NCBI GenBank assembly: GCA_027622495.1
Contig: JAQBYL010000002.1
Span: forward strand, 1 to 35,293
Direction: 5' to 3'
From: Pseudomonadota bacterium
Lineage (GTDB): Bacteria; Pseudomonadota; Gammaproteobacteria; Pseudomonadales; Azotimanducaceae
DNA: 35,293 nt
Shown: piece after piece, positions 8,224-19,396 of the stretch
Position numbering within the stretch: the stretch's first letter is position 1
Layout: the number at the start of each line of letters is the position of its first letter
The notes under the pieces: model-generated
The model's database searches: none
Told to the model about the DNA's origin: nothing
Seen by the model: only the letters and a program-made list of their open reading frames with translations
Made by a program: the position numbers and the translations under genes

Positions 8224-10881
8224 TCACCGGAATTTAAGATTTGGATCAATGTTACCCAATTGTGCCTCGAACAGGTTCTGGATTCGATCCATGCTGGCCT
8301 CATCATCCGCTTCAAAGCGAAGTGTCAGGACCGGGCTTGTGTTCGATGGACGAACCAGACCCCAGCCGTGGGCGTAGTCGACCCGAATGCCATCGATGTC
8401 TGTTGTTGCACCGTCACCGAAGTCAGCTTCATCTCTGATCCGCTCCATAATCGCAAATTTTTCTGCCTCGCCAACTTTTATTTTGATCTCCGGCGTGGTC
8501 AACGTCTGTGGGAACTGGTCAAACAGTTCAGCAACGGTCTGTGCTTCTGCCGACACGATCTCAATAAGCCTCGCAGCACAGTAGAGGGCGTCATCAAACC
8601 CATACCAGCGTTCGCCGAAACAGATGTGCCCACTGAACTCACCAGCGAGCAATGCGCCGGTTTCCTTTATCTTGGCCTTCATGTGACTGTGACCCGTCTT
8701 CCACATGATCGGTCGTCCGCCGTACTCGCAGATCAGGGTGCTTAAGTGCCGTGAACATTTGACGTCATAGATGACGTCCGCGCCGGGATTGCGGCCAACG
8801 ATGTCTTGTGCAAACAGCATCAGGAGTTTGTCCGGCCAGATGATCTGACCGGTGTTGGTAACCACGCCGAGACGATCTCCGTCGCCGTCGAACGCAAGCC
8901 CCAGATCGGCCTCTTCGTCGGTGACCACGGTCATCAGATCTTCCATATTTTTCGGATCTGCCGGATCAGGGTGATGATTGGGAAAGTCGCCATCCACATC
9001 ACAGTACAGCGGGATCACTTCGCAGCCGAGTTCTGTGAGCAGTCTGGGAACCAGTTGACCGGCCACACCGTTGCCACAATCAACCACCACTTTGAGGGGT
9101 GCCGCCACCACCACGTCGTCCAGAATGCGATCAACGTAGGCCTGATCCACGTTGACCTTAGTGACACTGCCATCGCCCGACGTCAGGTCGTTGTCGATGA
9201 TGCGGGTTTTGAGGGCCTGGATACGCTCCTCGGCCAGAGTCTCCCCCGCCAATACCATTTTGAGGCCGTTGTACTCGGGTGGATTGTGACTGCCGGTGAT
9301 CATGATACCGCTGCTGGTTTTCAGCGTGTGGGTGGCAAAGTACATGAGCGGGGTGGGGGTCTGACCGATATCGATAACGTCAATACCGCCTTCGGTCAGA
9401 CCGCGGGTGAGTTGCGTCTGCAGATCGTCGCTCGAGTGCCGTCCATCGCGCGCCAAGATGACACTGGCCTGATCAAGCTCCAGGGCCTGTGCTGCAAAAG
9501 CGCGCCCGATCCAGTAAACGACGTCTGCGTTTAAGTTGGTAGCGGTGATGCCGCGGATGTCATAGGCGCGGAAAATTTCGTCTTCAAGGACCAGACCGGT
9601 CTCCAGCGGCCCCACATCTTCAGTGACCTCCATCTCCAGACTGCCGTCAGCGATGGAGGTGGGCATCACGTCCAGAAAGTCGTTGTCGTTATCAATTGAA
9701 TCTTTAGTCGCGGGCTCATCACCGAGCAGCGAATCTACAGACTCATTAGCGGTTTTTTCCGCGGCCAGCACCGCCGAACGGCTGCGGTTGGCGACCACCG
9801 CGGGAATTTCGCGGCACATCTGCAGAATCTTTTCGGCTTCGTGTTCAACCATTTCGATCGTGAAAAACTGCGACATGGCCGGTTGGCGTGAAAGAAAGGC
9901 GCGAATCTGATTGGCCAGAACCACGAGGTCAGTACGCGTGCGTCGCGCGTATAACTTGAAGCCAAGAATGACACCACCAAGGGTGATCACCGAAGCCACC
10001 GTCAGCGCAATCAATACCTCGTTGACGGTGATGATGTCGACCAGCGCCGCAGGCTCATAGGACAGTGACCAGTTTGTCGCATCCAGTTCACCGGCCTGTG
10101 CGAGCTCAGCCTGACCAGCATCGCCGTAGGCGATGACGGGCATCGGTTCTGCCCCCGGGAACGCCTGGATGACTTTGACTAAACCATTCAGCCCGGCAAA
10201 CTTTTTTAGAGGCTCATAAAAATAATCGGCTGAGAAAATCACGAACAGGACACCAATCTGAGTGTCGCCACGGGTGATAGGTTGCGCGGCATAGACCTGG
10301 GTGCGTTGTGAAAGGGACAGTTCCGGACCAACAAAGATGCCTTTCTCAGCCCGTTTTACAACGTCGAGGGCGGCATATGACAAAGGCGTGGTTTCGTGCT
10401 TATCGACTTTGCCTGCGCCGGAAGGGATGGCATCGACGCGTAGCGCATAGGAGATGGAGCCCGCAAGACCGGTGTTATCGACCGTTCCCGTGTAGGCGTC
10501 CAGTGCGGTGATGACCGCAGGTGATGCCGCCAGCACCTCCATGTCGCGTCGCAGGGTCGCAATACGGCCGTTGAAAAATCCCTGCAGACCACTGTGAATC
10601 GCAACCGCTTGATTCTGCTGATAAACGCTGTTGCCTTTTTCCACCAGCATGGACCACAAGATCAGAAAAGCACAGAAGACTCCTGCCAGGGTAATTGCAG
10701 TGGTCACACCCACAGACAACCAGATGCCATCGCTCGGGGTCGCTGCCTTGGCGGGCTTTTTCGGTGTCGGGTCTGCGGATGGCTCATCTGGCTTGTCGTC
10801 TTCGGGTGGCACATCGATTTCAGGCGTCTGTGCAACCTGACGCAGCGGCGGATCGGCAAACTTTTTGCGGGCGGTGGCCAA
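8224..10881 (-). CDS. algC: Phosphomannomutase/phosphoglucomutase with N-terminal membrane-anchored extracytoplasmic domain (AlgC-like)
   Basis: Catalytic-serine motif GIMITGSHNPPEYNG, metal loop FDGDGDRLG, sugar-binding GEFSGH; about 425-aa N-terminal extension with two TM segments. TTG start. Adjacent to argB and coaBC as in Pseudomonas. Confidence 0.88.
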   Translation of the reverse strand: MATARKKFADPPLRQVAQTPEIDVPPEDDKPDEPSADPTPKKPAKAATPSDGIWLSVGVTTAITLAGVFCAFLILWSMLVEKGNSVYQQNQAVAIHSGLQGFFNGRIATLRRDMEVLAASPAVITALDAYTGTVDNTGLAGSISYALRVDAIPSGAGKVDKHETTPLSYAALDVVKRAEKGIFVGPELSLSQRTQVYAAQPITRGDTQIGVLFVIFSADYFYEPLKKFAGLNGLVKVIQAFPGAEPMPVIAYGDAGQAELAQAGELDATNWSLSYEPAALVDIITVNEVLIALTVASVITLGGVILGFKLYARRTRTDLVVLANQIRAFLSRQPAMSQFFTIEMVEHEAEKILQMCREIPAVVANRSRSAVLAAEKTANESVDSLLGDEPATKDSIDNDNDFLDVMPTSIADGSLEMEVTEDVGPLETGLVLEDEIFRAYDIRGITATNLNADVVYWIGRAFAAQALELDQASVILARDGRHSSDDLQTQLTRGLTEGGIDVIDIGQTPTPLMYFATHTLKTSSGIMITGSHNPPEYNGLKMVLAGETLAEERIQALKTRIIDNDLTSGDGSVTKVNVDQAYVDRILDDVVVAAPLKVVVDCGNGVAGQLVPRLLTELGCEVIPLYCDVDGDFPNHHPDPADPKNMEDLMTVVTDEEADLGLAFDGDGDRLGVVTNTGQIIWPDKLLMLFAQDIVGRNPGADVIYDVKCSRHLSTLICEYGGRPIMWKTGHSHMKAKIKETGALLAGEFSGHICFGERWYGFDDALYCAARLIEIVSAEAQTVAELFDQFPQTLTTPEIKIKVGEAEKFAIMERIRDEADFGDGATTDIDGIRVDYAHGWGLVRPSNTSPVLTLRFEADDEASMDRIQNLFEAQLGNIDPNLKFR

Positions 10882-17485: not shown

Positions 17486-18442
17486 GTGAAAGAACCGCGC
17501 AAAGCTCGTGACCCGTGGCCGCGAAAGCGACAGGGACCGCTGGCCTGGATTCGTGATCATATCCGGGTGGCCACGGAAGCCAGTCACTTCTTGAGCGCTC
17601 GCCTCGCCGCGAGCCTGGTGGTGTGGTTGCTGGTCGGTATAGCACTTGCATTACCGGCGGGTCTGTTTCTGCTGCAGGTCAGTCTGTCGGGCCTGACGCA
17701 AGTCTGGGATGGGCGCCCGGGGGTTTCGTTGTATTTCGATCTGGGGGCAGAAAACATCACAACGGTCGCCGACGAACTTCGCGGTCTGTCAGAAGTAGAC
17801 TCGGTCACGGTGGTGACGCAAGAACAGGCACTGGAGGAATTCCAGCGTCACTCCGGTGTGTCGGACGCCCTTGCGCTGCTCGAGGCCAATCCCCTGCCCG
17901 CCTCGATCCGGGCCACCATGTCGCCTGGAGCCAGCCTTGAAGACCTTGAAGCGCTGGCGCTGCGTATGCGTGCAGGTGCCGGTGTGTCCGAGGTGGTGGT
18001 GGAAAAGACCTGGCTGCAGCGCGTCAACGACATTTCGGTCGTCGTGCGACGTCTGGGCCTGATTCTGGGAGCCCTGTTCGGGATCGGTGCAGTTCTCGTT
18101 ACAACCACCTCTGTCAGGCTTGCGATCGAATCGCGCCTCGAGGAGCTGCGGGTCCTCAAACTGGTTGGGGCCACGGCCGGTCAGATGCGCCGGCCTTTCA
18201 TTTATTTCGGCGCGCTTTACGGTATCGGCGGCGGGATTGTCGCTGCGATGCTGCTGAGCCTCGCACTGATTGCCATTGAGACACCGTTGGCAGATCTGCT
18301 CGGCAGCTATGATCGAGACCTGGAATTGGCCGGTTTTGACCCGATATTCATCCTGTGGCTGTTGGGAATTGGCGGAGGTCTCGGTGTGACGGGTGCCCTG
18401 ATCGCTGTAAGACAACGGGTGTCAACGTTAGAAATATTTTAA
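17486..18442 (+). CDS. ftsX: Cell division permease-like protein FtsX
   Basis: Four hydrophobic segments, downstream of ftsE and upstream of rpoH; motif SRLEELRVLKLVGATAGQMRRPF; GTG start. Confidence 0.94.
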   Translation: MKEPRKARDPWPRKRQGPLAWIRDHIRVATEASHFLSARLAASLVVWLLVGIALALPAGLFLLQVSLSGLTQVWDGRPGVSLYFDLGAENITTVADELRGLSEVDSVTVVTQEQALEEFQRHSGVSDALALLEANPLPASIRATMSPGASLEDLEALALRMRAGAGVSEVVVEKTWLQRVNDISVVVRRLGLILGALFGIGAVLVTTTSVRLAIESRLEELRVLKLVGATAGQMRRPFIYFGALYGIGGGIVAAMLLSLALIAIETPLADLLGSYDRDLELAGFDPIFILWLLGIGGGLGVTGALIAVRQRVSTLEIF

Positions 18443-18483
18443 ATATCAGATAGATAGATAATCATAAGGAACTTAAACGGGGA

Positions 18484-18510
18484 TTAGCACTCTACGGGCG
18501 AGAGTGCTAA
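18484..18510 (+). promoter_or_regulatory. CIRCE element (HrcA operator) upstream of rpoH
   Basis: Perfect inverted repeat TTAGCACTC-TACGGGCGA-GAGTGCTAA, identical to the consensus CIRCE arms with the canonical 9-nt spacer. Confidence 0.92.
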
Positions 18511-18544
18511 AATTCTGCGTCGTGTTACCGGAGGTATCACTTTT

Positions 18545-19396
18545 ATGTCGACCCAAGTTATGAATCTGAGCGCACTGGCCCCAGGTAAGGATCTGGATGC
18601 TTACGTGAATACCGTGCGGTCTTTCCCCGTTCTGAGTGCCGAGCAGGAACGCGATCTGGCAGAACGGTTTATCTATCAGAATGATCTTGAGGCTGCCCGT
18701 GAGCTGGTGTTGTGTCATCTGCGTTTTGTGGTTCACCTGGCTCGCACCTATCGCGGTTATGGTCTGGCGGAAGGTGATCTGATTCAGGAAGGCAACGTCG
18801 GGCTGATGAAAGCCGTCAAGCGGTATGACCCTGAGCGCGGTGTGCGGCTGGTGTCGTTTGCCGTTCACTGGATTCGCGCGGAGATGCACGAGTTCATTCT
18901 GCGTAACTGGCGCATCGTCAAAGTCGCCACCACCAAAGCTCAGCGAAAACTGTTTTTTAATCTGCGTGGGGCCAAAAAGCGTCTGGCCTGGCTCACAGAA
19001 GAAGAAACCAATGCGCTGGCTGAAGAGCTTGGGGTGTCGAGCGCCGAAGTCACCCGCATGGAAAGCCGACTCAGCGCAAACGACATGGCCTTTGATGGCT
19101 ACGAAGGCGACGATGATGAGCGTAGCACTGCGCCCATGTACTTCCTCGAATCAGTCGGGAGCGATCCGGCGGAGTTGATCGAAGCGCAAGACTGGGAGCG
19201 CAGTTCGTCGGCAAAACTTGCGCAGGCACTGGGTGCGTTAGACGAGCGCAGCCGCGATATCGTTGCGCGACGCTGGCTCAAAGATGACAAAACAACCCTC
19301 ACGGATCTGGCAGCGGACTACGATGTCTCGGCCGAGCGAATCCGGCAGCTGGAAAAGAACGCGATCAAAAAGCTGAAAGAGGCGATTGCGGCCTGA
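18545..19396 (+). CDS. rpoH: RNA polymerase heat-shock sigma factor sigma-32 (RpoH)
   Basis: [84 protein letters not shown], RpoH-box region; follows ftsYEX; RBS GGAGG at 18530-18534. Confidence 0.97.

Follow-up and report, generated by a model that had tools for sequence, protein, structure and literature searches.

The sigma-32 gene rpoH in the DNA studied here (the window, a stretch of 35,293 nucleotides) is preceded by an exact CIRCE, and we consider it quite probable from the sequence data that this HrcA operator overlies two rpoH promoters, which would be derepressed together with groESL when unfolded protein occupies GroEL. HrcA is the repressor that acts at CIRCE, and its activity needs GroEL. 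The CIRCE is itself an ordinary member of its family, and it is the composite promoter that is worth attention.

We envisage that in unstressed cells GroEL-matured HrcA would occupy CIRCE and keep RNA polymerase off two overlapping starts, one a sigma-70 promoter (TTAGCA-N18-TAAAAT) with its -35 and most of its -10 within CIRCE, and the other a sigma-E promoter (GGAACTT-N16-TCTAC) with its -10 within CIRCE. Once unfolded protein occupied GroEL, HrcA would become inactive and groESL and rpoH would be derepressed, after which sigma-32 would switch on the remaining heat-shock genes. Envelope stress, acting through sigma-E, would raise rpoH fully only with HrcA off. We infer that HrcA binds at this site, that both promoters are used and that both are blocked: because CIRCE overlaps both promoter signatures, bound HrcA should shut out the housekeeping input to sigma-32 and the envelope-stress input alike, and with polymerase excluded from both starts, the joint release of rpoH and groESL on GroEL titration, and the confinement of full sigma-E action to that state, would follow. 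Sigma-32 may also be under post-translational control.

The operator and the predicted HrcA regulon

The gap between ftsX (17486 to 18442, the start approximate) and rpoH (18545 to 19396), both on the forward strand, contains at 18484-18510 the sequence TTAGCACTC-TACGGGCGA-GAGTGCTAA, to which we assign no strand. It has the two 9-nt arms and 9-nt spacer of a CIRCE operator, and all 18 arm positions agree with the consensus. The site starts 42 nt past the ftsX stop and ends 34 nt 5' of the rpoH ATG, which has a GGAGG ribosome binding site (18530-18534, forward strand). The 283-aa product has the Pfam sigma-70 regions 1.2, 2 and 4, and the RpoH that matches it best in each sampled member of the family shares 54-73% identity with it. 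An RpoH match was present in 39/39 genomes in the search of relatives, and the best named relatives of the protein are in Halieaceae and Alcanivorax, at 62-65% identity only, a similarity that indicates the order to which these groups belong and no particular family.

An earlier note on this DNA had reported the exact CIRCE upstream of rpoH and held a chance match to be negligible, and both statements stand. At up to three mismatches the window has one CIRCE match and 100 dinucleotide shuffles of it have none, the whole assembly has only two, and shuffled palindromes of the same composition gave 2 matches in 30000 trials, which together rule out a chance match.

The assembly is a fragmented draft (4.15 Mb in 546 contigs, 92% complete). 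The absence of hrcA from the genome was considered and rejected, as the gene is present on contig C79 (198 bits), intact, with both the winged-helix DNA-binding and the C-terminal HrcA domains, and adjoining grpE, which is where the earlier note had proposed to look for it. The note had also proposed a search for CIRCE before groESL, and the second of the two sites in the assembly is indeed on C52, 42 nt 5' of the groES start, with one mismatch, the rpoH site having none. No CIRCE was found near hrcA-grpE at up to four mismatches, and autoregulation of hrcA-grpE was rejected for that reason. With CIRCE only at rpoH and one groES, the predicted HrcA regulon is thus one groESL operon and rpoH. 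The same assembly has another groES (C266, 1582-1857, L386) with no CIRCE (best score 7 mismatches), either a second groESL copy or, possibly, contamination.

Two candidate promoters in one operator

In an alignment of 245 rpoH CIRCE sites there are conserved letters outside the arms. Together the 3' arm and the next three bases make up an extended -10 of sigma-70 type (TGCTAAAAT), the arm supplying the TG. TAnnnT is present in the -10 register in 225 of the 245 sites, with TAAAAT or TAATAT the commonest forms, and the extended -10 is near-universal in gamma-titled and beta-titled sites alike. In the window the -35, TTAGCA (18484-18489, forward strand), lies within the 5' arm, and after a spacer of 18 comes TAAAAT preceded by TG, the extended -10 TGC-TAAAAT occupying 18505-18513 of the forward strand with its first six bases in the 3' arm. 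The match is 9/12, in the form expected of such promoters (TGnTAnnnT and, 16-18 nt away, a -35), and this is the only sigma-70-like site in 18000-18700.

The second set of letters is of sigma-E type. GGAACTT is sharply enriched 16 (15-17) nt 5' of CIRCE, as is TCTAA at CIRCE positions 8-12; at this distance, which is the usual sigma-E spacing, the two would together make a sigma-E promoter. The -35 is recognisable in 154/244 rpoH sites (63%), and the final A of the -10 is present in 136/154 sites with the -35 vs 25/90 without it (covariation p = 5e-22). In the case of the window the -35, GGAACTT at 18468-18474, is a perfect consensus and is followed after 16 nt by TCTAC at 18491-18495 (both on the forward strand), which straddles the boundary between the CIRCE 5' arm and the spacer and matches the consensus TCtaA at 4/5 positions, with C at the last. 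The pair thus has the GGAACTT, the 15-17 nt and the TC-rich -10 of a sigma-E promoter. The genome has an rpoE gene (TIGR02939, 303.7 bits against a cut-off of 236), located 171 bp from a contig end, and RseB was not found in the draft assembly. With regard to the earlier proposal that the sigma-32 regulon is nested under HrcA, the predicted HrcA operator at rpoH agrees with it, but it is too simple, since a sigma-E-type promoter overlaps that operator and rpoH therefore has at least two predicted inputs.

The groES operators serve as a control. CIRCE is present at 30/30 groES loci in hrcA-positive genomes (L356-L385), with the TAnnnT register in 4/30 and a sigma-E-type -35 in 1/30. The composite layout is therefore restricted to rpoH and does not belong to CIRCE as such. 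The operator-promoter register at groES is unlike that at rpoH: in the relatives the groES CIRCE mostly follows directly on a CTATTA/CTATGA-like box and does not contain the -10.

The alternative that survives best is that HrcA only trims the sigma-70-type promoter, the sigma-E-like motif being unused or independent of HrcA and sigma-32 being set mainly post-transcriptionally as in E. coli. Sigma-32 in E. coli is controlled largely at translation and by turnover, and 37% of the CIRCE-rpoH sites have no recognisable sigma-E -35, chiefly those of beta type (the -35 is seen in 21/54 beta-titled vs 39/48 gamma-titled sites). We nevertheless think this explanation unlikely. The sigma-E motif is at a fixed offset (-16, +-1) with sigma-E spacing and its halves covary, and several hrcA-negative relatives keep GGAACTT-N16-TC at rpoH with no CIRCE, which would be the expectation for a separate sigma-E layer that outlasts HrcA. 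Also, over its first 241 nt (18520-18760) the predicted mRNA folds no better than shuffles (z = +1.39) and no thermometer is evident, in what is a weak test, blind to the specific E. coli structure.

Association of the rpoH operator with hrcA

We favour HrcA control of both promoters, and for the operator itself the distribution across genomes is informative. The class sample is 232 evenly drawn genomes, of which 173 have hrcA and 73 have the strict composite pattern. For pattern-negative genomes rpoH was located and its upstream DNA scored for the best CIRCE, with a threshold of three mismatches; the count omits six hrcA-positive genomes in which rpoH had no match and two whose contigs were truncated. 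CIRCE precedes rpoH in 152/165 hrcA-positive genomes (~92%) vs 6/55 hrcA-negative genomes (Fisher p = 5e-30, a value that overstates independence because the genomes are related). A predicted HrcA operator at rpoH is the rule among the sampled hrcA-positive gammaproteobacteria, and as the arrangement is so widespread we reject the idea of an organism-specific oddity.

Within families, hrcA-positive and hrcA-negative pairs differ in CIRCE in the same direction in f26, f65, f98, f101 and f114; f30 and f127 do not follow, and in f141 neither member has CIRCE. The class count includes 13 hrcA-positive genomes with no CIRCE at rpoH. Six hrcA-negative genomes still have a CIRCE-like rpoH site, which is decayed in G103 and G220; near-perfect sites with hrcA undetected are those of G156 (L318), G149 (L200), G234 (L324) and G052 (L315). 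Some of these cases may be assembly gaps, and for G052 this is likely since a congener has hrcA.

The earlier note had asked for conservation of the site in relatives, and CIRCE is indeed kept across genera and is mostly absent from the sampled members of the order that have no hrcA. Among 25 genomes of the family, CIRCE with up to three mismatches precedes an rpoH gene in 19, a four-mismatch remnant does so in 3, and 3 have none. The six with a remnant or no CIRCE at rpoH are all hrcA-positive, and most have a second rpoH-like gene. Some family members with two rpoH genes, which are outside the class count, have hrcA and no rpoH CIRCE. Among the relatives G001, G002, G008, G014, G019, G021, G023 and G024 (L333-L350) several have two rpoH-like genes, and in such genomes one copy has retained its CIRCE or shows it eroded or lost, and the other has none. 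In the rest of the order, seven families are sampled by hrcA-negative genomes with no CIRCE at rpoH, and four with hrcA have CIRCE; the members with neither are G025, G031, G032, G033, G035, G036 and G037. A scan of named genomes found an RpoH motif with a suitably spaced CIRCE ahead of it in at least 119 stretches, with Alcanivorax, Rheinheimera, Pseudoalteromonas, Nitrosomonas europaea, Thioalkalivibrio, Variovorax, Comamonas, Stenotrophomonas, Dyella, Methylobacter and a Geobacteraceae bacterium among the matches listed.

HrcA control of rpoH, which the earlier note had predicted, is well supported at the level of sequence because hrcA is intact, CIRCE is present at groES, and the site is conserved across genera and lost where hrcA is lost. 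The presence of hrcA, the conservation and the co-occurrence all agree with that prediction, and what has changed is that the arrangement is not an unusual one.

These data also bear on whether CIRCE is a relic, once bound by HrcA and now kept only as promoter sequence, which we regard as very improbable. CIRCE is in part -35 and -10 sequence, so the need for a promoter could alone keep some bases, and a few hrcA-negative genomes do retain it. However, promoter need does not explain the near-invariant G4, C5, A6 and T8 and the GAGTGC of the 3' arm, hrcA-negative genomes lose CIRCE while they may keep the sigma-E promoter, and the window's genome has both an intact hrcA and a perfect CIRCE. That the inverted repeat works as a hairpin in the leader RNA of rpoH, affecting message stability or attenuation, and not as a DNA operator is if anything less credible still: CIRCE can occur in transcribed leaders in other bacteria and transcripts begun at the sigma-E start would carry a portion of it, but the extended -10 ending at 18513 places the sigma-70 start downstream of CIRCE, the arms are conserved in their letters and not in pairing alone, and the presence of CIRCE tracks hrcA.

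Comparison with known systems

Accounts of bacterial heat shock usually treat HrcA repression and sigma-32 activation as two alternative or parallel systems. If the predicted control of both promoters by HrcA is correct, the sequence record would put them normally in series where gammaproteobacteria have both, with sigma-E feeding into the same DNA. We extend this tentatively: in most HrcA-bearing gammaproteobacteria (beta included) one CIRCE may overlap sigma-E and sigma-70 promoters and give HrcA a veto, envelope stress then raising sigma-32 only once cytoplasmic GroEL was already overloaded, and HrcA-less lineages such as E. coli may have kept the sigma-E promoter free of that veto. In E. 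coli sigma-E drives rpoH from P3, a promoter of the GGAACTT / TC type, as is predicted here. To our knowledge E. coli has neither HrcA nor CIRCE, whereas in the window the sigma-E -10 lies within the operator. Classical HrcA/CIRCE control of groESL, as in Bacillus, Caulobacter and others, has the same operator and repressor, and the C52 site is the equivalent in the window's genome.

The closest precedent comes from Geobacter sulfurreducens, for which Rodionov et al. (2004; PMC545781, Table 8) predicted a CIRCE upstream of rpoH. That case is like the window in operator consensus, in having rpoH as target, in distance (listed as -51) and in the groESL sites. It differs in that G. sulfurreducens also has CIRCE before hrcA-grpE-dnaKJ, a site that the window's genome does not have. 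It is a single deltaproteobacterial case, and the passages of PMC545781 on it do not describe a promoter overlap. In a literature search that covered subscription literature thinly, we found no text on near-universality in hrcA-positive gammaproteobacteria or on the interlock with a sigma-E promoter. Novelty is provisional, as Permina and Gelfand 2003, or a paper on Geobacter RpoH, may report HrcA at rpoH more widely. The arrangement in series, with sigma-E entering at the same DNA, offers a picture open to test of the way in which sigma-32 levels would be set in those relatives of E. coli that have HrcA, and of what the loss of HrcA would have removed.

Elsewhere in the window, at 8224-10881 on the reverse strand, there is an 885-aa ORF that resembles phosphomannomutase/phosphoglucomutase and has a long N-terminal extension that is membrane and sensor-like.
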